Shown: one piece after another, positions 7,710-23,668 of the stretch
How positions within the stretch are numbered: position 1 is the first letter of the stretch
Layout: each line of letters begins with the position of its first letter
Source: a virus
IMG/VR virus record: IMGVR_UViG_3300027996_000166
Span: 1 to 23,668 of that record
Length of the DNA: 23,668 nucleotides
Reading direction: 5' to 3' (one strand)
The notes under the pieces: model-generated
Database searches by the model: none
The model's input: only the letters and a program-made list of their open reading frames with translations
What the model was told of the DNA's origin: nothing
Position numbers and translations under genes: made by a program

Positions 7710-9695
7710 TTATGCTAGATAACACCCAACCCCAATTTGCCATAACGCGTTTTGGTTGCCACTTACTGACTTATAATATATACAACAGTTCTCACTTATT
7801 GGTACACCGTTAGTGTCGGTTATTATTGTGTATTCAATACCACCAATGGTTTGTATATCTAATAAATAATTACCAGGAGAAGCTATTGGATGAAACGTTG
7901 GCGGTATATATGGTGGGCATATGTAACAACCTACACCTGAGACCTCTTCCCCAAATACATTGAGTAATGGTTCTGAGGCATAAAACCCATCGATATTTTC
8001 ACAACAATCTTTATTGTATAATGAACCATCTAAATTTGTTATTGTATTACTAATGTTGTCAATCAATGGGTCAGTACATCTTCTACAAAAAGGTGTGCTT
8101 CCTTGTGTTTGTATGTATTCAAACCCTAAAGATGTACAACAAGCGTTTGATAGTGTGTTACCACTTAAATCCGTTATATTAATTGTATTATCGTCTAATA
8201 CTGTTTCTTTAATTTCTCTAGGACATGGGAAACAACCAAGCTTTTCATTACCTAACGTTTGGATGGTGTTGTAAGTTGCTCTGAGTTGTTCGTAGGTACC
8301 CGATGCAGTTATTAAACTTATTGTGGGGGACCCAAAATAATAACCTAAAGATAGACAGCAAGACTGTGAAAGTATTGTAAAGTTATCCACACCAACCGGT
8401 TGTGTATCATCAATTAACGTCCCAAATAAACCATTAAAATTTATGGTTGTTTCTCTCGAACATTCATCTACATTCGTAACTATTTCACATAATTTTGTTT
8501 TAGGGTTCCAAGTACCACCCCTTAATTTACAACATTCTTCATTTTTCAATATTTCACCATTAAACATATAAAAACTTTTACCATTACTAAAATATGTGTT
8601 CATTACCATAATTAAGAAAGTACGAGCCTCTAATGGGTCGTTTCCGGTATACCCGTATTGTGTCGCTAATGTTAATATTTGTGTTTCACTATCACCTATG
8701 TTAGATAAAAAACTTTCTGGGGTATTTATAAGGTCTAGTGCCGATTCTGGTGGACACCACCAACAATAATAGAAGTTTTCATCTACTGGTGGTATCGTAC
8801 CTTGTTGGTCTACACCTATAGGCGTGGTGTTGTTTGGTTCCTGTTGTCTATTGGTTGGACCAGAAAACCCAAATCCCGTCTGACCACAATCAGTACAAAC
8901 TTCAAAATAGTTATCACCACTATTGTAGGGGTAGACCTCCATTACATATGTCGATGGGCCCGCCTCATCTAATAAGATATCTGTTGATAGTGTTTGGTAA
9001 GGATTTTTAAAATCTGAAAAAACAATTATTGGTATGGGTCCTGGTGATGACGGTAATTTTTTTAATACGTAATAAATACCAGGTTGTGATGCCCCAGCAA
9101 CAATACCAGATATGGGCCCTTTGGTTGTAATAGTTAAGGTTATTGGGTTAGTCACTGAAGCGGTTGGTGCGTCTATTGTAAATTGAGCTGTTGCCGGTGC
9201 TGAACCAGTACCACTCCATTCCGTTTGTGGTACATCTTTGAAAACAATACTATTACCGACACAATCATTATTAGTTGTGAGAGTTCCGCCAACACCAGTA
9301 ATGTTAGTTTGTAAAAATGTTAATTGGCAATCTGTTGTATTCCCATCTGGTCCGTCTATAACGATTACTTCAGCAGAATCAGCAGGGTTAGATATGGTTT
9401 TTTTAAAACAAATTACCCCATTTTCTGTTGTTTTTGGTATTAACCCGAACCTAGAACAACATTCCTCATTTTCTACATAATATGTGGTGGTTCCATTAGC
9501 GTCAATAAAACCTTCAAACCCTTCACCATTTGTTACTTCCGACCAAACCCAACCTTCACAAGGTACTGTGTTTGGTCCCCAATAAAAATCACAACACTCC
9601 TCAATATCGTGTGGGACACTTGTCTGGGTTTTAGGGTCCGAAATGTAAATTAACCCAGAAGGGTGAAAAGTTATGTCTGTTGGGCAGTCCGCACA
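7710..9695 (-). repeat. Array of CxxC...CC cysteine modules in the gpI-like protein
   Basis: Residues 671-1331 contain a degenerate repeating unit. A CxxC (often CxxCP) is followed 24-77 residues later by a CC doublet, usually in an (E/S/N)-x-CC setting such as NEECCKLRGG, SQSCCLSLGY, NACCTSLGF or KDCCENIDGF. The last unit ends four residues from the C-terminus (GVGCYLA). Seven CC doublets are visible. Similar doublets occur in the 1000-residue neighbour. I cannot assign a known domain name. Confidence 0.65.
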
Positions 9696-11705
9696 TAATT
9701 CCGATTCTCCAGCTTGGAATGTTATTCTTAGTGAATGGGTGTCACCACTATCTCTAACGTTTATTGGACCATCTGCATTACCAAATGAAACCAACCCTGC
9801 TGACAAAACATTAATATTATCATCTGGGTTTACAAAGAATGGTGAAACCTCTTGTCCGTAATTAGAGAATGGTTGCCCATTTTCATTTGGGGTGAATGTT
9901 CCGTTATTATACTCAGTAAAATAGTTAGTTATTAATGGTTCTGTCCTATTAATGTTTGTTGTTTCTTGGAACTCTTCAATGAAACATCTAAATCTATCCC
10001 AATATCTTTGTCCAAAATCATATGTACCGTAATGTGGGTTATTTCCTGTGGTTCTTATATTCCCTCCATTATACCAAAACCCATCATTTTGAAACCAAAA
10101 TGTTTCATCGTCTTTTGGTACCTCTGGAAATCCATTGTCATCAAAAGGGAATGTATTATAATTAAGGTCAAAATAATCAGGCCCAAACAGACTATTAAAT
10201 TGTCTTCTAACCGCATTCAAATCTAATCTATCTTTAGCTAAATAAACTCTTTCGTCCATAGTAACTAAACAATTATTTATACCAAACAATTTCATGAAAA
10301 ATTCTAAAACTTTTCTAGTACCCTTAGACCTAAACAACCACCAAGCATTTATAACCAATCTTCTCCATAACTCAATGTCTATTTCTTTTGCTGATAGTTC
10401 TCTTGAATAACCCGCGAATTGTGGGTCGTCACCTTCCTCGTCATTCTCCAATAAATTAAAAGCATTTCCTGTTGTAATTAAGGTGTCAAACCCTAATGTT
10501 TTTGCCATTATCTTTATTAAGCTATCTGATGTGTTATCTTTTTTATTATAAGTTACAACATTAGCGAAAGAAATGCCATCAATATATTTTTTAATTACAT
10601 CAAATTCTACACCATATACTCTTAATAGTTTAGAAACCCTCATACCAGTTTGTGAAGTACCCTCACCTTCTGTATCATATTCTATGATTGAGTCGGAAAC
10701 AAACCTTCTTAGTACTAAATCTGTTTTATTTTCATCATATAAATTAGCTATTTTAAATAAATTTTCTATATAATCTTCATAAGAAGCTGTGTTTATATCT
10801 AAATTGTAACCATCACTTGTTGGCCAAGAAAAACTTTTAAGTGTAAAACCTATATCACCATTACCATACTTAATTGGCACATTTATAGTAAAATTATATA
10901 TGGGTATCGTTAACCTGTCCAATAAAAGATTTTGAAAATCAGTTAAATTTATGAAAAATTTATCCCTTATTGTTTTGGTTGGTTTTATTTGGAAATTTCT
11001 TTGTGAAAAAGTTGTGCCCGATAATCCATTAAAAACTTTTCCATTAATATTAAAATATATATACCTATCACCGGTTGTTTTACCAGTCATACCTTTTATG
11101 GTGTACTCATTATCATTTTCATCACTTAAAACATATTCTGATACTTGTGAGGGTATATTATCTTGACCAAATGGATTATCAGTATAGTCTAAATTATATG
11201 GGTTATTAACCCCCACTGTTGGTGTTTTAAATGTTGCTGTATCTGTCGGTGTGTCGTAATTAAAATCTAATATGGTATTTATGCCTGATGGTCTTTGTTG
11301 GTTCGCATTTATGGGATTAACTGTTATTGATAAAGAGGCTGGCCATTTAACAATTATTTCTTGTACTGTATTTTCTAAAAACTTATAAAAACTACCAAAA
11401 TAAACGTATCTATTAATATTTGTTTTATCATAATTTAAATTAACATACACATTATTAGAGACCATTGTTTGTAACTCTGACTCAGTTATATTTAAATTAT
11501 TTAAATTATAGTAGTCTGACCATTCACCTAACTTAAAGTCTTGTGCCACCCTACCCTCAAAGTTGGATGTTATCGCGAAATTACCTAAAGTAAAAAAGGC
11601 ATTCGGGTCTGTAAACTGATTACCGACTAGACTTGGAGCAAAATCACCTTGTCTTAGTTTATAAGCGTCTGTTAACGAACCTGGTACTACTTTTCTTACT
11701 GCCAT
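7710..11705 (-). CDS. Baseplate protein: P2 gpI-like segment fused to Cys-rich C-terminal half
   Basis: This is a 1331-residue protein. Residues about 436-480 carry the P2 gpI-type tail protein signature: ELWRRLVINAWWLFRSKGTR, then VLEFFMKLFGI. In P2-like tails gpI follows J in the baseplate, and here it lies downstream of the J/gp6-like gene. Residues 1-430 are presumably wedge scaffold. From residue 671 the composition changes abruptly: 33 Cys in 661 residues against 2 in the first 670. CC doublets fall at 704, 749, 1058, 1116, 1189, 1234 and 1307, and CxxC pairs at 671, 937, 981, 1158, 1207 and 1260. Typical P2 gpI is only about 180 residues, so this is a large extension. It starts 11 nt after its upstream neighbour with MAVRK. 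Baseplate assignment is good; the function of the C-terminal half is unknown. Confidence 0.85.
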   Translation of the reverse strand: MAVRKVVPGSLTDAYKLRQGDFAPSLVGNQFTDPNAFFTLGNFAITSNFEGRVAQDFKLGEWSDYYNLNNLNITESELQTMVSNNVYVNLNYDKTNINRYVYFGSFYKFLENTVQEIIVKWPASLSITVNPINANQQRPSGINTILDFNYDTPTDTATFKTPTVGVNNPYNLDYTDNPFGQDNIPSQVSEYVLSDENDNEYTIKGMTGKTTGDRYIYFNINGKVFNGLSGTTFSQRNFQIKPTKTIRDKFFINLTDFQNLLLDRLTIPIYNFTINVPIKYGNGDIGFTLKSFSWPTSDGYNLDINTASYEDYIENLFKIANLYDENKTDLVLRRFVSDSIIEYDTEGEGTSQTGMRVSKLLRVYGVEFDVIKKYIDGISFANVVTYNKKDNTSDSLIKIMAKTLGFDTLITTGNAFNLLENDEEGDDPQFAGYSRELSAKEIDIELWRRLVINAWWLFRSKGTRKVLEFFMKLFGINNCLVTMDERVYLAKDRLDLNAVRRQFNSLFGPDYFDLNYNTFPFDDNGFPEVPKDDETFWFQNDGFWYNGGNIRTTGNNPHYGTYDFGQRYWDRFRCFIEEFQETTNINRTEPLITNYFTEYNNGTFTPNENGQPFSNYGQEVSPFFVNPDDNINVLSAGLVSFGNADGPINVRDSGDTHSLRITFQAGESELCADCPTDITFHPSGLIYISDPKTQTSVPHDIEECCDFYWGPNTVPCEGWVWSEVTNGEGFEGFIDANGTTTYYVENEECCSRFGLIPKTTENGVICFKKTISNPADSAEVIVIDGPDGNTTDCQLTFLQTNITGVGGTLTTNNDCVGNSIVFKDVPQTEWSGTGSAPATAQFTIDAPTASVTNPITLTITTKGPISGIVAGASQPGIYYVLKKLPSSPGPIPIIVFSDFKNPYQTLSTDILLDEAGPSTYVMEVYPYNSGDNYFEVCTDCGQTGFGFSGPTNRQQEPNNTTPIGVDQQGTIPPVDENFYYCWWCPPESALDLINTPESFLSNIGDSETQILTLATQYGYTGNDPLEARTFLIMVMNTYFSNGKSFYMFNGEILKNEECCKLRGGTWNPKTKLCEIVTNVDECSRETTINFNGLFGTLIDDTQPVGVDNFTILSQSCCLSLGYYFGSPTISLITASGTYEQLRATYNTIQTLGNEKLGCFPCPREIKETVLDDNTINITDLSGNTLSNACCTSLGFEYIQTQGSTPFCRRCTDPLIDNISNTITNLDGSLYNKDCCENIDGFYASEPLLNVFGEEVSGVGCYICPPYIPPTFHPIASPGNYLLDIQTIGGIEYTIITDTNGVPISENCCIYYKSVSGNQNALWQIGVGCYLA

Positions 11706-13969: not shown

Positions 13970-14694
13970 TATAATATAACTCTTTCTGTTAATGTTATTG
14001 TGTTAGTGGTGTTGCCACCAATAAGGGGTTGTGGTATTACAGCGAAATTATGGTTACCATTATTATTATTAGGGTTGTATACCGTAATTGGGCTAGTCCA
14101 GTAATCACTATTAGCACTATATTGTGTTATGTTTATTGGTGACGTAAAACCGTTTGGTAGGTTATAAAAATCATATACTTTACCATTTAATGCACTGAAA
14201 AATCTACCAATAATATATAAATTTAGGTCATCGTTTGTTTCATTAAATAACGTATAATTTCTATCCCAAAAAATCCTTTTTAGGTTGAAGTTTGGTGATT
14301 TTGTGTCTGTAACGTCTAATTCCTCGAATAACATTAAATTTCTATTTTCTGGACTATTTTTATCGTAAAAATATAATCTAAAATAACTTTTTAAGAATGA
14401 ATTTTTCCTAAGACCACCACTGCTGGAAGTGTTAAATCCTGCCGCTTCGTAATCTGCTAAATAAGTGTTTGTGCTCCTATCTAAAAACCTAAAATTTATA
14501 TTAATACCTAAGCTGTCAAATGTTTTATAGGCTATTTGTTCATCATCAATAAATGGGTTTATAGTGTTGTTAACCTCTATATCGACTAATTTGTCAATAG
14601 TTTCACTCAATCCTAATTGTGTAAAACTTGTTGATGGTGACATACTTATGTTTATATCCTTACCTTTTACTTTATTTATACTATACTTTTCCAT
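13969..14694 (-). CDS. Hypothetical virion protein, 241 residues
   Basis: The family is not recognised. I place the start at ATG 14694-14692 (MEKYSINKVKG). It forms the TAATG overlap seen at other junctions, whereas a two-codon-longer TTG start at 14700 would lie inside the upstream gene without benefit. The protein has no Cys, is rich in Asn and aromatic residues, and contains beta-prone stretches (YFRLYFYDKNSPENRN, about 85-100, and DDLNLYIIGRFFSALNG, about 135-151). It stops with TAG at 13969-13971. Its position between the gp6-like gene and the gpI-like gene suggests a baseplate component, perhaps an elaboration of the wedge; this is inferred. Confidence 0.77.
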   Translation of the reverse strand: MEKYSINKVKGKDINISMSPSTSFTQLGLSETIDKLVDIEVNNTINPFIDDEQIAYKTFDSLGININFRFLDRSTNTYLADYEAAGFNTSSSGGLRKNSFLKSYFRLYFYDKNSPENRNLMLFEELDVTDTKSPNFNLKRIFWDRNYTLFNETNDDLNLYIIGRFFSALNGKVYDFYNLPNGFTSPINITQYSANSDYWTSPITVYNPNNNNGNHNFAVIPQPLIGGNTTNTITLTERVIL

Positions 14695-16571
14695 TAACAA
14701 ACATCTTGTATTTCACCCACTCTTACGAATTCTTGGTCTATAATTTTTTCTGTAAGTGGGTTTTGTCTTCTTATAAAAAAACTGTAATTACCATAAAAAT
14801 AGTGTTTACCATTTATAAATGGGTAGTCTACACCAACACCTGAATTAGGTTCTATAAAACCAATATATAGTAAATCTCTCCAAGCTATACCGCCATTTGG
14901 GTATGTTTCTGCGTAATTTGGTATCCCTTCTGTTGGTTCATTTATACTACTAGTTTCTATTATATCAGAAAAATTCATTATCTCTAACTTACTGAATGGG
15001 TTTAAGAAATACCCCTCCCCATTTGGGTCGTCAGCTAAACCAAATCTATGTACTATTTTTGATATCACCTTCTCTTTAATTTCTAAACTATTATATTCAG
15101 CATAATCTCCAATGTAATCATATAAGTCATTAGGTTTTTCTATGGTACCCACACCATTAATAACGTATTTGGATATTGTTTCTAGCCCATTAATTGTTGT
15201 TATTTCGTAACTATTAAAGTCCCATCCAGCAACAACGTTAGACCATTTGTATGTGTTTTGGCCTGACCTTTTTATAAAACCTAAGTATAGTTCTGTTAGT
15301 GGTTTGTTGTTGTGGTCTAATAATTTACCAACATCTATATCCTTATTAAAATGATACAACCAAGTATCATTAGCTATACCTAACTCATTTACAATTGTTT
15401 TTGGGTATATACTAGTACTAAAAGCACATTTATATGAATCATATTCGTTTGTTGTTAAAACTTTATAACGTCTAACATAATATTCTGAAGGAGTACCATT
15501 TAATGTTCTAAATCTGGGTTTATTTGATGTGTATGATTGTGTTTGCCCCTTTGTTGTAAATAAAATATATTTTATAATGAAGGTGTTTGGGTCTAAAACT
15601 GAGTATACTTTAAATATACCATTTAAAATGCCTACACCCCTTAAATCTATATATGGTGGTATAAATTCTTGTGGTGGTGTGTATGATGGGTCTTCAGACC
15701 CTAGTGGTAATGATGCTGAAAATGGTACATCTAAATTGTGTGGTGTTTGTGTGGTTATTTTAAGGTATATATCATTACCACTAGAAAAAGTACCGGTAGT
15801 CCCACCATATTGGTCTGTTGCGGTAACCATGTTAATGTCTATTGTATTAGAAAAATTAATATCTTCTTGTGTTGTGTTAACGATTCTACGAAAATTACTT
15901 GGTTCTGTATAAGTGAATTCATATGGTGTGTCTAACACAAATTCTTTGTCCATATTTTTACCATCAATACCTAGACTTAATACCTTGTATATCCCATAAT
16001 ATGGGTTTGCAGGTATTTCCCTATTATATAGATAAACATAATCATCTACTGAAAGATTGTGTTTTTGTACACACTTAACACCTAATTTTTCTTCTTCACC
16101 TTCTGGTGTTGCTGGTAAAAAAGTTTTTATTTGTGGCCCCATATTAGCTGGTGACGATATGTTTGTACCAACTTGACTAATATATTCCATATTAAAATCA
16201 ATATCTTTTTCGTGTGGGTATAATATCTGTAATAACCAGTTATTTGGTGTTACCTTTGGGTTACCGTCAGGTAGTGGGTCCCAATCCTCACTTAGTGTGC
16301 CCGTTTTTACCGTGATTATACCATCATCCGCTATGATTCGTTCTGTTGGGTCTAGTTCATTCGCCGTATATATGTTTATTTTACCAGAAAAACGATAATC
16401 TCTAACTTCCACTCTTTCTTTTTCAAAAACATCAGCTTGGTTAACCACATTAACTAAATCATATTCTATTAATGGTTTAGTTGTGTTGTCTAAGCCAATA
16501 GTCAGGAAGGTATCAGTTTCTAAAGCGGACTTACTAGTTAATTGCTTTGGTACTTTTAATATTTGGCTCAT
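14694..16571 (-). CDS. Large structural (probable baseplate) protein, 625 residues
   Basis: No family is named with certainty. Two copies of a beta module are visible at about 165-214 and 268-335. Each has an HNL strand turn (VQKHNLSVDDYVYLY and TQTPHNLDVPFSA) followed by a G-I-(Y/F)-KVYS/KVLS strand and a final F(V/I)(L/I) strand. This resembles a domain in many phage virion proteins written HGL...GD.V...NG.Y.V. Cys is scarce. The gene starts 2 nt after the stop of the gp6-like gene, in the slot where T4 has gp7, but I see no clear gp7 signature. A wedge role follows from position only. Confidence 0.8.
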   Translation of the reverse strand: MSQILKVPKQLTSKSALETDTFLTIGLDNTTKPLIEYDLVNVVNQADVFEKERVEVRDYRFSGKINIYTANELDPTERIIADDGIITVKTGTLSEDWDPLPDGNPKVTPNNWLLQILYPHEKDIDFNMEYISQVGTNISSPANMGPQIKTFLPATPEGEEEKLGVKCVQKHNLSVDDYVYLYNREIPANPYYGIYKVLSLGIDGKNMDKEFVLDTPYEFTYTEPSNFRRIVNTTQEDINFSNTIDINMVTATDQYGGTTGTFSSGNDIYLKITTQTPHNLDVPFSASLPLGSEDPSYTPPQEFIPPYIDLRGVGILNGIFKVYSVLDPNTFIIKYILFTTKGQTQSYTSNKPRFRTLNGTPSEYYVRRYKVLTTNEYDSYKCAFSTSIYPKTIVNELGIANDTWLYHFNKDIDVGKLLDHNNKPLTELYLGFIKRSGQNTYKWSNVVAGWDFNSYEITTINGLETISKYVINGVGTIEKPNDLYDYIGDYAEYNSLEIKEKVISKIVHRFGLADDPNGEGYFLNPFSKLEIMNFSDIIETSSINEPTEGIPNYAETYPNGGIAWRDLLYIGFIEPNSGVGVDYPFINGKHYFYGNYSFFIRRQNPLTEKIIDQEFVRVGEIQDVC

Positions 16572-16573
16572 TT

Positions 16574-18397
16574 TTATTCTTTAACTCTAACTTTTATATC
16601 TGTTTGTGGGAATCTTATTTGAAACATCGAGTCGTATTCAGCGAATAATGTAAAATCTTCTGTTAAATTTATCTGTAACGTTTCTAAATCTGACATTTCT
16701 TGTGTTGTAACATTACTAGAATACGGTGTACCAGTCCTATTGAATACTTTGAAATCTATAACATTTAAAACCCCACCTACATTATTTATATTTTCGATTA
16801 ATTGTGATAAATAAATATTATCACCCATGTCCCAATCCTGTACTTTAAAATATTTTTGTACAGAATCAATAACCCCAGCAATAACTTCACCTCTTGAAAA
16901 TGCTTTATCTATAAAAATGTCTATATCAAAAGCCAAGTCAAATATTTTACCGTCCCTAGTTAAAACATAGTCATTAATCATTCTATAATCGGCTAACCAA
17001 GAGGCTATATTTTCTTTAAGTGTATTTGTAGACGAATTACTTAATTTTCCTTGACTGTCTAACCCTATAATCGCAATATCTATTTTATTTTGTCTTTCAG
17101 ATACGTTATTTCTAAACGGTATACCAAACGTACCAGGCATTTTATCTATTAATACAACATAATCTTTTAATGTTACTGCTCTATTTTGTGAAGAAAAGTT
17201 ATATCTAACCATCTTTTTTATTTGTTCAGTACTGGGAGCGTCAGCACCACCAAAAGCTGGGACTGGGTTATTTACTTTCAATGAGCCCTGAACCCTTTGA
17301 TTTGTTTGAGCGTTTGGCCCATTTACCTCCATAATGTAAGCTCCTCTAGCTGTTAATGTGTTAGCCCCAACATTGGCGTTTGCTCCACCACCAGTTCTAT
17401 ATCTAATATACATGGTTTTACCAACAGTTGGTATTTCACCCATAGCTGTGGTATTTATAAAATCACCAATTCTTAATGTAAAATTGTTGTTTGCGTAAGT
17501 ATTTAATTGTTCTTGGTCAGCATTACCCGAACCAAACGTCATTTTACAAAACCCCTTATCTGTATATTCTTTAATAAATCTTCTATTCGTATTAACCCAT
17601 TTACCTGGTGTTATCGTTGTATTATCTGTTTGTCTTGTTTTGTCTTGTATAAAAATTTTATCTTCCATTAAAGAATCCATTTCATACCAACTTAATTCTG
17701 GGTCCGAAAATTGTGATAGTGTTGGGTTTCCTTGTAAATTAGCTCCTTCAAGAGTAATTACTTGTTCTATAGATATTACGTTTGTGTTTGGTAGTACTAA
17801 CTCTAAAAATGGTTTGGCATCTATTTCTGTTATGGTCTTACTAAAAACATTTGTAACACCGGCCACTACAAATTCTCTTTTAACTAATGTATACCCAACT
17901 AAAGTTCCGTTTTGATTTAAATTTGGTAGTACTAATCTATTTGGTATTCCACCAATACTTAATGGTTCACTGAAATCAATATCATCAAGTGTTTCAAAAC
18001 TCTGACCACCACCTAAAACTTGAGCCCCATACTTTAATGTTGGTGCGTATCTTATGTCAAAGGTGTCACCATTGACTGGAACATTTACAGAAAAATCTAC
18101 TATAGATACCGATGGTCTTTTACCTGGAACATTTAAACCTAAAGTTCTAGCTATATTTAATATTGATTTTCTTTCTTGTGCAAAATCTAATTGTGTTTCT
18201 TGGAACATCCTATCGGTATTGAATGATAACATGTCTGATACTGCCGCGTTTAATTCTATTAACATAGTACCAATAGATGCATCATTAAAGTCTTGGAATG
18301 TTTCTGGGTAATATTTTTTAATAAAATTAAATAACTCTGTCCTTACGTCAGAAAAGTTTCTAGCGAAGTAATTAATTTTTTTGTTTGTTGTTGCCAT
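16574..18397 (-). CDS. Baseplate wedge protein, T4 gp6 / P2 gpJ family
   Basis: This 607-residue protein (T4 gp6 is about 660) belongs to the Baseplate_J family that forms the inner ring of contractile-tail baseplates. The diagnostic segment is at about 387-413: DAPSTEQIKKMVRYNF, then NRAVTLKDYVVLI, matching the family pattern of (P)(S/T)xExIK followed by RAVT-xxDY. The N-terminus (FNFIKKYYPETFQDF at 23-37, then a helical NTDRMFQETQLDFAQERKS at 60-78) fits T4 gp6-like proteins of environmental phages. It lies 1 nt downstream of the gp25-like gene, the W-J order conserved in P2-like and T4-like tails. In the assembled phage it should dimerise and join gp25 in the wedge. Confidence 0.92.
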   Translation of the reverse strand: MATTNKKINYFARNFSDVRTELFNFIKKYYPETFQDFNDASIGTMLIELNAAVSDMLSFNTDRMFQETQLDFAQERKSILNIARTLGLNVPGKRPSVSIVDFSVNVPVNGDTFDIRYAPTLKYGAQVLGGGQSFETLDDIDFSEPLSIGGIPNRLVLPNLNQNGTLVGYTLVKREFVVAGVTNVFSKTITEIDAKPFLELVLPNTNVISIEQVITLEGANLQGNPTLSQFSDPELSWYEMDSLMEDKIFIQDKTRQTDNTTITPGKWVNTNRRFIKEYTDKGFCKMTFGSGNADQEQLNTYANNNFTLRIGDFINTTAMGEIPTVGKTMYIRYRTGGGANANVGANTLTARGAYIMEVNGPNAQTNQRVQGSLKVNNPVPAFGGADAPSTEQIKKMVRYNFSSQNRAVTLKDYVVLIDKMPGTFGIPFRNNVSERQNKIDIAIIGLDSQGKLSNSSTNTLKENIASWLADYRMINDYVLTRDGKIFDLAFDIDIFIDKAFSRGEVIAGVIDSVQKYFKVQDWDMGDNIYLSQLIENINNVGGVLNVIDFKVFNRTGTPYSSNVTTQEMSDLETLQINLTEDFTLFAEYDSMFQIRFPQTDIKVRVKE

Positions 18398-18398
18398 T

Positions 18399-18782
18399 TT
18401 ATAATTCTATTTCTATAAAATCAGTACCAGCGAAAGAGGCCGAAGTAACTTTATAGTCTAGTCTAACTATTGCTGCCTTTTCGTTTCTTTCTGATTTAGA
18501 TACTGTTATTTCTAATATTGTTAGGTTTGGTATGAATTCTTTTATTGCTGCCTCTATTTCTGATTGTATAGATTTGTGTACTATACCGTCATTTTGTTCA
18601 AAAATATATTGTCTTAAGTTAACACCAAAAGATGGTAAATAAAGTCTTTGCCTTTTTTGTGTTAATAAAAGATGTAGTAAATCGGCTTTAATCGCTCTTT
18701 TACTAGTTTTTTCCATCTTTAGAAATTTACCTTTAGGGTCTTCTTCAAATGGAAACGATATATTTATGTATTTTTCTGCCAT
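18399..18782 (-). CDS. Baseplate wedge protein, T4 gp25 / P2 gpW lysozyme-like family
   Basis: This 127-residue protein is close to the 132 of T4 gp25. The family core is visible: a helix ending LLHLLLTQKRQRLYLPSFG (36-54), corresponding to the LLxTxxGER...PxFG segment, then LRQYIFE and a later amphipathic helix (SIQSEIEAAIKEFIP) with beta strands to the C-terminus. Despite the lysozyme-like name, this family is structural: it joins the gp6-like protein and contacts the sheath. It is the first gene after the terminator at 18851-18881 and probably the promoter-proximal gene of the structural operon. Its leader (AATAAAAAGAA before the ATG) is A-rich, with no canonical Shine-Dalgarno. Confidence 0.93.
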   Translation of the reverse strand: MAEKYINISFPFEEDPKGKFLKMEKTSKRAIKADLLHLLLTQKRQRLYLPSFGVNLRQYIFEQNDGIVHKSIQSEIEAAIKEFIPNLTILEITVSKSERNEKAAIVRLDYKVTSASFAGTDFIEIEL

Positions 18783-18803
18783 TTCTTTTTATTAATAAAT
18801 ATT

Positions 18804-18834
18804 CAACTATATAATTTATACTAAAAATATGAAA
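18804..18834 (-). promoter_or_regulatory. Candidate promoter of the structural operon
   Basis: On the minus strand TTTC (18834-18831) is followed after 19 nt by TATAGTTG (18811-18804). This is one mismatch per box from the Bacteroidota housekeeping consensus TTTG-N19-21-TAnnTTTG. The same stretch holds TATAAATT (18820-18813), one mismatch from the T4-type late box TATAAATA. It lies between a terminator and the first structural gene, where a promoter is expected. The region is AT-rich, so chance matches are possible. Confidence 0.4.
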
Positions 18835-18850
18835 TGTAAATTTTGGCATA

Positions 18851-18881
18851 AAAAAAGCCTCAGTATTGAGGCTCTTTTTTT
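18851..18881 (-). terminator. Rho-independent terminator after the ribonucleotide reductase
   Basis: A 7-bp perfect stem, AGCCTCA (18856-18862) with TGAGGCT (18867-18873), encloses a 4-nt loop. On the minus strand it is followed by a run of six T (18856-18851), some of which overlaps the stem base. A run of T also follows on the plus strand, so it could work both ways. It sits 15-45 nt past the reductase stop and separates the replication block from the structural operon. Confidence 0.88.
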
Positions 18882-18895
18882 ATTTAAACGTTTTA

Positions 18896-20110
18896 TTAGT
18901 TTATTTCTTCTTTTTCTGCGATAGTAGATAAGTCTACGTCAATCTCACATTGCCCACCACCACAAGCAATTTCACCACTTAAGTCTGTATTATCTTCTGT
19001 TTCTATGATTTTACTTAAATCAACGTCTAATAATGACTTCATCATTTCAAAATATTTTTCTTCTGTAATATCTTCAAATGGGGCCTGTACATATGTTCCA
19101 CCATCATAAGGTAATACCGATAAACCATTATAAAATTTACGATTCTCCCACATCCACTCACCAGCTAAATCCCAATCATTTTCTTTTAATGAAATTGTTG
19201 CTGAGACATTATGTGTGTTGGAACCTTTTCTATGACCTGGACTTATCCATTCTTGTGACACTTTTTTCACCCTTTCTAATAATTCAAATGGTGACTCTGT
19301 TCTCATAATAGCACCCTCTGGTGATTTTTGTGGTATTTCAATAACAGCCGTGTCATGTGGTCTGTAGTATTCATCTTGAATTAATTCTGGATGGAATTCA
19401 GATAAATATCCATATATTGATTCGTTTTTACCAACTCTGATTCTTCTAATGTAGTAATCATTATGCCAAGCGTGAATACCTGATGAAGTACCTAATGTTA
19501 ATGAAGTTGTTCCAGCCGGTTTAACCGTAGTACATCTAGCTGCTGGGTTAATTCCTATTAATTTAGCTACCCTAGTGTTTTCTTTTTTAACCAAACTAGC
19601 CGATTTTGTCATATCATAACCTAAAACTGTACCACTACCAATACCTGTCATTGATACGCCTATTAAAGCATCTTTTTCTGTGGTTTCTCTCCACTCTTCT
19701 CTTAGGTAATGAAAATCTGTGTAACCTGCTTGTAGTGTACCAATAAACGCTGCCCCTTTGACTCTTTCATTTAAATCTTCCTGACTTTCAATATCTGAAG
19801 CATTTACCTCACATAAGTTACAGAACTGAAATGGTCTTAGTGCTATTTCACAACATGGATTTGTACCCCAATCTTTATCATTTGAAAAGTAAATACCTGG
19901 TTCTCCAGCCCCCGATAATTCAACACGTTTCCAAACATCTAAAAAGAACTCTTTTGTTACTTTGTGTCTCATTAGTACCGCTGAATTATTAGCTCTACCT
20001 CTTTGTGGGTTAAGTTCCCACCAATTTCCTGCCTTACAAGAAATCATTTCATCATCGTCAGCTGAAAATAATGATATTAAAGCTGCTCTACGTATACCAC
20101 CAGCTAACAC
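18896..20110 (-). CDS. Class II ribonucleotide reductase, C-terminal (catalytic) part after in-frame stop
   Basis: This is the larger part of an adenosylcobalamin-dependent ribonucleotide reductase, which makes deoxynucleotides for phage DNA. The listed start is an internal GTG, but the frame is open up to 20170, and its extra 20 residues are conserved family sequence (THDIVCYIADA just before VLAGGIRR). It is therefore probably not an independent start. Catalytic residues in this numbering are N84, the thiyl-radical C86 and E88 in NPCCEI, with partner C97 in FCNLCEVN. A PAGTTS phosphate-binding loop lies at 198-203. The C-terminal redox pair is C383/C388 (CGGGQC), as in the Lactobacillus leichmannii triphosphate reductase. 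It stops at TAA 18896-18898, just before the terminator. No activity-cone domain is seen. Confidence 0.85.
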   Translation of the reverse strand: MLAGGIRRAALISLFSADDDEMISCKAGNWWELNPQRGRANNSAVLMRHKVTKEFFLDVWKRVELSGAGEPGIYFSNDKDWGTNPCCEIALRPFQFCNLCEVNASDIESQEDLNERVKGAAFIGTLQAGYTDFHYLREEWRETTEKDALIGVSMTGIGSGTVLGYDMTKSASLVKKENTRVAKLIGINPAARCTTVKPAGTTSLTLGTSSGIHAWHNDYYIRRIRVGKNESIYGYLSEFHPELIQDEYYRPHDTAVIEIPQKSPEGAIMRTESPFELLERVKKVSQEWISPGHRKGSNTHNVSATISLKENDWDLAGEWMWENRKFYNGLSVLPYDGGTYVQAPFEDITEEKYFEMMKSLLDVDLSKIIETEDNTDLSGEIACGGGQCEIDVDLSTIAEKEEIN

Positions 20111-20170
20111 AGCGTCAGCTATATAACAAACAATATCGTGTGTTTCGATTGTTGATAGGTTGTCACCATC

Positions 20171-20173
20171 TTA
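20171..20173 (-). other. In-frame TAA interrupting the class II ribonucleotide reductase
   Basis: The codons around it read K-TAA-D in one frame, with no shift. Conserved class II reductase sequence ends at GILSQK and resumes with DGDNLSTIETHDIVC. Removing this one codon's stop meaning would give a protein of about 632 residues. No ATG, GTG or TTG lies in frame between it and the GTG at 20110, so an efficient restart is not evident. Confidence 0.85.
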
Positions 20174-20794
20174 TTTTTGACTTAATATACCTTCTATTTT
20201 AAGTAAACACTCTTTAAGTGGTTGTGGTCCTGGCGCTTTACCACCAGACGTAACTAACATAGCCCCTTTTGGTCTGATGTCCGAAAAATCAAATTCGATA
20301 CGTGAACTTCGACCATTAAGATAAGATTTCATCAATACTTTAATTGCGTCAGCCCAACCTTCTATTGAGTCACCAATTAAAAATCTTTTTTTCCTTTTTG
20401 TGTATGGTTTGTTGATTGGTGGTAGTGAAGCTACATGATGTTTTTGTACTGAATAACCAACACCAGTCCCACCTAATAAAAGGAACATACATTCACTAAA
20501 AGCTTCTACACTATCAATAGGCATGTACGCACAATTATAAACTCTGTTTGGCGATATCTCCACTGGTTTACCCCCAAATTGCATGGACCTCATAGATGGT
20601 AATATTTTTTTATTATACACCAATTGATAAACTTTATTTATTTCGTCTTTAAGCTTTGGGTATCTTTTGATGTGCATATTTTTATTACGTGTTACCAATT
20701 CTTCCCAAGTTTCTCTTCTCTCCAATTCTGGCATATACTTAGCGTACTTCATATATACAGTTATGTCTGATAGAATTTTATTAGATAATTCCAT
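20171..20794 (-). CDS. Class II ribonucleotide reductase, N-terminal part (ends at in-frame TAA)
   Basis: These 207 residues are the start of the reductase completed by the next frame. ILPSMRSMQFGG (64-75) matches the family's PSMR-x-M-x-x-G segment. C88 in YNCAYMPID is the first of the two active-site redox cysteines. LLLGGTGVGYSVQ (105-117) and RPKGAMLVTSGGKAPGP (174-190) are core barrel segments. There is no N-terminal ATP-cone. Alone this fragment lacks the thiyl cysteine and cannot be an active reductase. The start is ATG 20794 under a long A-rich leader, 39 nt after the helicase. A recent nonsense mutation, a sequence error, readthrough or a two-chain enzyme would all fit; I favour mutation or error. 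Confidence 0.85.
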   Translation of the reverse strand: MELSNKILSDITVYMKYAKYMPELERRETWEELVTRNKNMHIKRYPKLKDEINKVYQLVYNKKILPSMRSMQFGGKPVEISPNRVYNCAYMPIDSVEAFSECMFLLLGGTGVGYSVQKHHVASLPPINKPYTKRKKRFLIGDSIEGWADAIKVLMKSYLNGRSSRIEFDFSDIRPKGAMLVTSGGKAPGPQPLKECLLKIEGILSQK

Positions 20795-20833
20795 TTTTAT
20801 TTATTTTTTTAATTGTTATTAATTATTATTGTT

Positions 20834-22231
20834 TTATTCGGTACTTTTTTGTTCTCTTCTTAATTTCGCCATTTTTAACCTTTCTTTAGCGTTCTCCTCT
20901 TTTCTAACTTCAACCTTTTTTTCGTAACCTAAAAAGGTGTCTGAAGTTTCTGTGTCAATAAACACTTTACCATTATCAAATGTACAATCTTCAAAAATAA
21001 CACCGTCTTTTCCGAATCTAGATTTTAAAACCGCTATTGTCGCCCTATTACCTTCCTTTTGGGATAAAGACCTAGCGATAGACATGATAAAATGTCCTAT
21101 TTGGGCTTTTTTGATTGACCCCCCCATTTGGTCACCAGTAACGACATCCGAAGAAACTGAACTTCTATTACCTTGTACAGCGGTCCAACCCACCATATTG
21201 TACTCAACTAACATAGATTCAAAACCCCTCATTACATTGCCTTCACCTGACCATTCATCATTATATCTTCTTGCTGATTCCACACAATCGATATAATCTA
21301 AAACAATCATATCAGGTTTAAATCCTGTTGATATTAAATGTCTGATGTATGATTTAATATGGTTTACTGTAATCCCTTCAGAAGTAAACTTTCTAATTAT
21401 CAAATCGTTTTCTCTACCATCAGTTTTTTCTTTAATAACATTTATTACGGACTCTTTATCGTCAGATAATTGATTTAACTCAATACCACTCCAACAAGAC
21501 GCATGCTTTCTTTTAATTACATCAGGTATATCTTCAAAAACAATTTGTAAAACATTGTAACCAGCGTTATATGCTGTGTTTGCCATTTTAGTTAGTATTG
21601 TTGTCTTACCAACCCCATATGGCGCTAAAACCACACCTAACTCTCCTCTAGATAAGCCTCCATCGGTTAAATTATCTATACCATTTATCCCCGTAGGGAT
21701 TGGATGCCTAAAATCCTCTTCTAAAACTGTATCCCAGCCATCAGTGATTGATGTTCCATCATCTTTTTCTGCTCCAACAGATAAAGCTTCTTTCATTATG
21801 TCAGCACACTCTTCATATCTACCAAATTCACCGTTATCAATGATTTTTGATATCTTGTCGTTTGCCTTTTTTAACTCTTGTTGTCTACAAAAATTTAATG
21901 ATTCTTTTTGTACGTATTCCCAATCATCTACTTCTAGATTTTTGATTTCTTTAGTTATTTCAAATACGTAATCTTGTGTTATTTTATCTTTTATCTCTAC
22001 CTTTAAAACCGTTTCAAGTGTATCCCATTTTGGTATTTTCTCGAAAGTTTCAAAATAATCTTTTATTGTAGCTATGATAAGTCTAAAATACTCGTTATCA
22101 AAATACTTCGCGTGAACTATATCGATAACTCTATCAGCAAATTTTTTATTTGCTGGGTGTAATATTTGATTTATAAATTCTGTTTGAAACCTGTACCCTA
22201 AGTACCCTAAAGTTGTAACTTTCTTACTCAT
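20834..22231 (-). CDS. Replicative DNA helicase, DnaB / T4 gp41-like
   Basis: This 465-residue protein has a RecA-type helicase core. Residues 1-160 form a helical N-terminal domain for hexamer assembly and primase contact. The core opens at PTGINGIDNLTDGGLSRGEL (179-198) and continues to Walker A APYGVGKTT (203-211) and Walker B MIVLDYID (308-315). VQGNRSS (352-358) fits the DNA-binding loop region, and KSRFGKDG (403-410) fits the late arginine-containing motif. The C-terminus is a charged, lysine-rich tail (KEENAKERLKMAKLRREQ). It should ring the lagging strand and unwind the fork. It follows the unknown 160-residue gene by 35 nt and precedes the reductase, in a replication cluster. I see no primase domain. 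Confidence 0.92.
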   Translation of the reverse strand: MSKKVTTLGYLGYRFQTEFINQILHPANKKFADRVIDIVHAKYFDNEYFRLIIATIKDYFETFEKIPKWDTLETVLKVEIKDKITQDYVFEITKEIKNLEVDDWEYVQKESLNFCRQQELKKANDKISKIIDNGEFGRYEECADIMKEALSVGAEKDDGTSITDGWDTVLEEDFRHPIPTGINGIDNLTDGGLSRGELGVVLAPYGVGKTTILTKMANTAYNAGYNVLQIVFEDIPDVIKRKHASCWSGIELNQLSDDKESVINVIKEKTDGRENDLIIRKFTSEGITVNHIKSYIRHLISTGFKPDMIVLDYIDCVESARRYNDEWSGEGNVMRGFESMLVEYNMVGWTAVQGNRSSVSSDVVTGDQMGGSIKKAQIGHFIMSIARSLSQKEGNRATIAVLKSRFGKDGVIFEDCTFDNGKVFIDTETSDTFLGYEKKVEVRKEENAKERLKMAKLRREQKSTE

Positions 22232-22266
22232 ATAAACTAAGTTTTGATTTATTAATAAATAACTAT

Positions 22267-22749
22267 TTATAGTGAGATTCCGCAGTATTCCACATCAAAA
22301 TTTTGTAAATAAAATGTTTCTTGTATTTCCTTAATTATAGAGGGGATTATTCTTCTAACATCAACAGAGTATCTAACTCTTTGTGGATAAACATTACCAG
22401 TAAATCTTTTTTTGATTCTGTGTAACTTATCATATCCCTTATCATTTGTTGTGACTTTTATTTCGAAATCAAAAACATCTTCATCATCATATATATTCTC
22501 AACTAAAATATCTTCTTGCAATTGTTTTCTAAATGGGTTATAACTTTTATATAGATAATCATATGTTTTATTCTTTAAGTCATCTTGGATTAACTCAACA
22601 CACCCATCTACACACTCAGCTAATTCAATTGAGTTTAACACTTTAGGGTTAAAATTCTTAACCGAAAAATATCTCTGACAAATAATATTGTCATTTATGT
22701 ATAATACAAACTCAAACTTCTTTTCAAATTTTCTATCAAATTTTTTCAT
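22267..22749 (-). CDS. Hypothetical protein between exonuclease and helicase, 160 residues
   Basis: The family is not recognised. It opens with a basic stretch MKKFDRKFEKKFEF followed by a beta-prone VLYINDNIICQRYFSV. An acidic middle (DILVENIYDDEDVFDFEI, about 79-96) precedes a basic segment (KLHRIKKRF, about 108-116). It has no membrane segment. Its ATG overlaps the upstream exonuclease stop as ATGA (TGA at 22748-22746), a tight coupling that suggests a replication or recombination accessory role. That inference rests on position alone. Confidence 0.75.
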   Translation of the reverse strand: MKKFDRKFEKKFEFVLYINDNIICQRYFSVKNFNPKVLNSIELAECVDGCVELIQDDLKNKTYDYLYKSYNPFRKQLQEDILVENIYDDEDVFDFEIKVTTNDKGYDKLHRIKKRFTGNVYPQRVRYSVDVRRIIPSIIKEIQETFYLQNFDVEYCGISL

Positions 22750-23668
22750 CTTTTTTGTTTTTTATAATTTATTTTTTCTTTTTTAGCTAACTTAATAAAT
22801 GGTTCCATAAAATTTAAGTAACCATTTTCCCCACCTGGTAAAGCGTACATAACACCATCTTCAATCATCATCTTGAGTACGTTTTTAGTGTCTCTCCCAC
22901 TTGGGTCTATGGGTAAGTTTATTAAATTATTTACATTATCTGTAGCCTCTTCTGTTAATAAAGGATTATTTAAATCAATTATTTTTTTATTAATTTCATA
23001 AAGTGGTCCCCTATGTGTTCCCCTTGTTTTACCCTCAATGATATTGTCAATAACTTTAAGTGGTGTTTTCCTTTCTTCTTTTATTTTCTTACTTTCTTCT
23101 ATTATCTCTTCTAGGGTTACTTCCCTTTCTTTTAATTGTGGAAAATGTTTCAACAGTGTGTTTTCAGTTACACCGTCAACACCTTTGATGTAATCACTCT
23201 TACACCCCTCAATAATCTTTATAAGTCCAGTGTTTGTATAATGGTGTTCAAAGAACCATTGGTAGTTACCTATCCCTACTTCCATTTTTTTATCCGCTAA
23301 AAAAATTGTAACTTCATTATTTATCATCTGACATAAATCACGGTCATTAGTATAAACCATAACATCCTCGTTACTTTTTTTATTTAAACAATAAAAAGCA
23401 ATTAAATCGTCAGATTCAACATCTGGGTGTTCATACTGTCTAATAGATAAATCTTCAGCATATTCCTTAACCCTTAGTTTTTGTAATTCATATTCCTTAT
23501 CGAAAAACCTAGGTCTATTTCCTTTGTATTCAGGGTAGTAGTCTAATCTAAGGGTTCCACCCCTTTCCCCATCCCAAGTGATAACTACTTTATCTATCTT
23601 ATGTTCTATAATAATTTTTCTTAGTGTACCATAAAAGGCGGATATACCACCTATATGTTTACCTTTAT
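22746..23668 (-). CDS. 5'-3' exonuclease / flap endonuclease family (5' end off window)
   Basis: The frame is open to the right edge, so the true start is outside the window; 306 residues are visible. Upstream of the first visible Met, family motifs read GISAFYGTLRKII, then VVITWDGERGGTLR and YYPEYKGNRPRF, matching the WD(G)...R...YP-x-YK-x-NR segment of polymerase I-type 5' nucleases and T4 RNase H. ESDDLIAFY, YTNDRDLCQM and GCKSDYIKGVDGV follow, giving the ExDD and D-x-D metal-binding acids and the helix-hairpin-helix. It should remove RNA primers or flaps during phage replication. The C-terminal tail is lysine-rich. It stops with TGA inside the next gene's start. Confidence 0.88.
   Translation of the reverse strand, partial: KGKHIGGISAFYGTLRKIIIEHKIDKVVITWDGERGGTLRLDYYPEYKGNRPRFFDKEYELQKLRVKEYAEDLSIRQYEHPDVESDDLIAFYCLNKKSNEDVMVYTNDRDLCQMINNEVTIFLADKKMEVGIGNYQWFFEHHYTNTGLIKIIEGCKSDYIKGVDGVTENTLLKHFPQLKEREVTLEEIIEESKKIKEERKTPLKVIDNIIEGKTRGTHRGPLYEINKKIIDLNNPLLTEEATDNVNNLINLPIDPSGRDTKNVLKMMIEDGVMYALPGGENGYLNFMEPFIKLAKKEKINYKKQKR

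Follow-up and report, generated by a model that had tools for sequence, protein, structure and literature searches.

Does an in-frame TAA inside a conserved phage ribonucleotide reductase gene mark a recoding site, a split enzyme, a natural knock-out or a mistake in the contig? The question is raised by a stretch of viral DNA of 23,668 nucleotides (the window), in which an earlier note had reported a single in-frame TAA within a conserved class II reductase. The interval that it gave, 20111-20240, correctly brackets the stop, and the sequences on both sides match TIGR02505 in the same frame. The features of the locus are the following.

From ATG at 20794 to TAA at 18898-18896, minus strand: class II ribonucleoside-triphosphate reductase gene, 632 codons when read through the stop.
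20174..20794, minus strand: 5' part of the gene (residues 1-207), 207 codons with an ATG start; TIGR02505, E 2e-28; PF21995; 90% identity to relative L001.
20171..20173, minus strand: private in-frame TAA, codon 208 of 632; the variant base is 20173, and the codon is GAA in 5/5 near-identical contigs.
20108..20110, minus strand: codon 229, the first in-frame GTG past the stop; a normal conserved Val rather than a start; Val in 159/159 relatives.
18896..20170, minus strand: 3' part of the gene, frame unchanged; contains the TNPCCEI thiyl-Cys motif and the C-terminal CGGGQC; TIGR02505, E 1e-39 over the downstream 404 amino acids; alignment with 1L1L; conserved columns undecayed.

Judged by profile, domain and motifs, the gene is an adenosylcobalamin-dependent ribonucleoside-triphosphate reductase of class II (NrdJ/RTPR type). 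The TIGR02505 (RTPR) profile matches both halves, each of which alone scores below the curated cutoff of 340 bits that applies to the whole protein (98.9 bits upstream and 136.3 bits downstream). Residues 138-204 correspond to the class II RNR insertion domain (Pfam PF21995, RNR-II), and the stop is placed in the short loop directly after it. Taken together, the two halves align across the stop, in one frame, with the Lactobacillus leichmannii RTPR (1L1L), which shares with the window reductase the family profile, the TNPC.EI motif and the C-terminal C.GG.C, both motifs aligning between the two proteins. The window differs from 1L1L in its one in-frame TAA, which lies beside a one-residue gap on the 1L1L side. 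The earlier note had held that C88, the thiyl cysteine and CGGGQC are kept, and this is borne out: the predicted active-site residues are all there (NC at C88, TNPCCEI and CGGGQC), and no conserved column is violated on either side of the stop. Class II RTPR genes are common among marine phages (PMC10547690), and the nearest annotated isolate genes, those of Microcystis phage Mel-JY01, Oceanospirillum phage PD0307 and Vibrio phage VPs20, are each single and uninterrupted.

On the minus strand, positions 20176-20135 read AAA TAA GAT GGT GAC ..., and the homology that flanks the stop on both sides means that chance is not at issue. By that homology, the TAA is a genuine in-frame interruption of the 632-codon gene in the window contig. 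The single uninterrupted frame of a class II RTPR is broken here at codon 208 and is intact in five near-identical contigs.

Identification of those contigs depended on the method of search. Two ranked similarity scans listed nothing above ~90% identity; a degenerate pattern built from the window peptide that flanks the stop, in which codon 208 could be any codon, then found seven further contigs, including the near-clonal ones. Such a pattern can reveal sisters that a ranked similarity search does not list. In L277, L278, L279, L280 and L282, which come from five other metagenomes, the reductase protein is that of the window except at codon 208, which is GAA in all of them; the remaining two pattern-found relatives (94% amino-acid identity) also have GAA. 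The earlier note had proposed examining this codon in related reductases, and in the near-clonal phages it proves to be a sense codon. Over the 1,899-base gene, L277, L278, L279 and L282 differ from the window by one base only (coding-strand position 622), and L280 by that base and one further silent change. Identity to the window is 99.94-99.97% over 7-10 kb for L277, L278 and L279 and 99.7% over 14.8 kb for L280. Across the 10.1 kb common to the window and L277-L280, the window has a base found in no covering sister contig at one position only, 20173. By these comparisons, the TAA is a singleton change of G to T on the coding strand (GAA to TAA), found only in the window contig.

The wider family presents a similar picture. 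IMG/VR yielded several hundred homologues in two similarity scans and one pattern scan, among them 215 distinct relatives that cover the site. Codon 208 is GAA in 156 and GAG in 29 of these (185 together) and another sense codon in the other 30; a stop at this codon, or any internal stop in the gene, occurs in 0/215. With TAA, TAG, TGA or TGG at codon 208, the degenerate pattern matches the window and no other IMG/VR contig; with Glu at that codon, it gives more than 120 IMG/VR matches. The column is moderately variable, with 10 residue types among relatives, and ~30% of columns equal or exceed it in variability.

The coding sequence beyond the stop was examined for decay. Columns that are at least 99% conserved number 60 upstream and 119 downstream of the stop, and none is violated. 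The dN/dS of the downstream part against L001 is 0.077, and with 0 breaks over the 285 nonsynonymous sites of conserved columns, the time of neutral evolution can be at most ~0.01 substitutions per site. No synonymous differences separate the window reductase from those of L277, L278, L279 and L282, and the sister contigs tighten the neutral age of the lesion to essentially zero. By these measures, the region past the stop is undecayed, and purifying selection on it is intact. A fixed pseudogene was considered and rejected: 0/119 conserved downstream columns are broken, the gene has no further lesion and the sisters are intact.

The feature is absent from genomes that lie one base apart, which excludes a fixed site of recoding, an enzyme in two chains and a knock-out throughout the lineage; recoding and a split enzyme, even when counted jointly, are very improbable. 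Programmed readthrough or local recoding of the UAA would yield the full-length enzyme together with a 207-amino-acid truncated form. The conserved coding sequence downstream would suit such a mechanism, as would the variable loop position, at which any inserted residue could be tolerated. However, the near-clonal phages have GAA, so that a recoding site is not maintained, and codon 208 is not special, since one third of the reductase codons that are one step away from a stop are comparably variable. Conservation of the stop among close relatives, a mark of recoding, is found in 0/215 distinct relatives. No RNA structure downstream of the stop rises above shuffled sequences (fold z-score -0.35), no Rfam family matches, and no tRNA, suppressors included, is present in the 23.7-kb window, which is one fragment of the genome. 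Most other genes in the window also terminate normally at TAA, which upholds the earlier note's argument that a global code change is no explanation; with no tRNA found in the window, a local code change was rejected on the same grounds. Stop-codon reassignment in phages resembles the present case in having an in-frame stop inside a conserved gene, and the changes described are of TAG to Gln and TGA to Trp, with TAA not mentioned (PMC11210395). The window differs in having TAA rather than TAG or TGA, in a single gene, with no suppressor tRNA in the window and with TAA ending the neighbouring genes. Readthrough is accordingly given very little credence.

A reductase of two chains, the second restarted after the stop as in the NrdJ-a/NrdJ-b of phiYS40 or the NrdA of Aeh1, is scarcely credible. 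The stop does fall at a plausible split point, in the loop that ends the insertion domain, and the resemblance to the split nrdJ-a/nrdJ-b of phiYS40 and nrdA-a/nrdA-b of Aeromonas phage Aeh1 lies in the presence of two open reading frames (PMC3653736). Against it, no in-frame ATG, GTG or TTG lies between the stop and the GTG at 20110, as the earlier note had observed, and a restart at that GTG would lose E217, H219, D220, C223 and A226, each of which is invariant in 159/159 relatives. In the two-gene reductase of phiYS40, a Thermus phage, the split comes far later, 797 codons in, and there is a second ATG and a gap of 12 bases. Unlike the split phage reductases, the window has neither inserted DNA nor a second start, its interruption is in a different position from that of phiYS40, and its near-clonal sisters are intact. 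A search for relatives split at codon 208 into two chains, each with its own start, found none. Two of the four explanations offered in the earlier note, a nonsense allele and a base-call error, stand, and the other two, readthrough and a split enzyme, are effectively excluded by sisters that have GAA and one intact gene. Its further suggestion of a lineage knock-out or a recoding site fails, since the rest of the lineage has an intact gene with GAA at the codon. Overall, comparison across contigs indicates that the phage reductase is an ordinary one, that the stop codon is private to a single contig and that no special coding trick is involved. The case carries a caution, in that a lone stop in a metagenome contig resembles recoding until near-clonal contigs are compared.

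The choice thus lies between an error in the contig and a rare allele. The TAA is probably technical, a base-call or assembly error rather than the mark of a true mutant genome, and the singleton pattern is consistent with this. It may have entered the contig consensus because few reads covered the site or because a base was damaged or misread; the virus would then carry a normal gene, the stop would have no function and the phage would encode an ordinary single-chain class II enzyme that makes deoxynucleotides for its own DNA synthesis. The competing explanation, a real and very recent nonsense allele, is possible and distinctly the less probable; some genomes in the sampled population would then carry a dead reductase and would either rely on the deoxynucleotide supply of the host or of a co-infecting phage, or be dead ends. 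The stop is only one substitution away from the GAA of the sisters, and the absence of decay, within the ~0.01 substitutions per site and with no synonymous difference from L277, L278, L279 and L282, fits a very recent origin. Lack of decay is predicted by error and by very recent mutation alike.

Two considerations make error the most likely explanation and a real nonsense allele a less likely one. A nonsense change in this gene is strongly selected against and should be rare in real genomes, as the lack of internal stops among the 215 relatives indicates, whereas random errors are blind to this constraint. In addition, sister assemblies carry similar private lesions, which are themselves not proven errors. 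The near relative L281 (617-2011) has a lone private TAA at conserved Tyr codon 59 of its replicative helicase, the helicase gene of L279 has three missense changes clustered within 8 bases, the extreme end of the L278 contig has a gap of 2 bases, and the reductases of L212 and L263 are broken by indels. Against error, nothing else over 10 kb sets the window apart from its sisters, which implies a contig of generally good quality in which the lone base could equally be real microdiversity. It is very improbable that a nonsense allele circulates at appreciable frequency in an environmental phage population as a natural knock-out, kept by complementation during co-infection or by hosts whose deoxynucleotide supply suffices. 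If the allele were both real and frequent, it would offer a natural knock-out for testing the dependence of the phage on its own reductase.

Some features of the surrounding sequences are recorded apart from the question of the stop. A chimeric join at the stop was rejected, as the two sides are equally close to L001 (90.3% and 89.6% identity) and the sister contigs run across the site. An intron or intein at codon 208 was likewise set aside, since there is no insertion there; the related phage reductases that do have an insertion have it at codon 315. These reductases (L125:1895-2676, L141:2851-3632 and L151:2034-2965) carry an in-frame insertion of ~300 amino acids that separates the paired Cys residues of the thiyl motif, TNPC|C-EIAL, and that matches intein splicing blocks (PF14890, E 7e-18) and, weakly, HNH.

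The replication genes of the window appear mosaic. Over window 18399-23666, the closest of the more distant relatives varies by gene: L001 for the reductase (89%), L052 for the helicase (90%) and L046 for the exonuclease (90%). Among the near-clonal contigs, L282 equals the window across the reductase gene, the stop base excepted (window 18500-20923), and about a quarter of its bases differ in the structural genes at ~14300-18400; distinct phages seem to have swapped the reductase block, unless the L282 assembly is chimeric. Between the window and L280, ~30 positions differ within the 118 bases of window 9558-9675, including a 3-base gap. This cluster sits in a large structural gene (7710-11705), amid DNA that is nearly identical elsewhere, and it may represent either a local exchange or a hypervariable patch.
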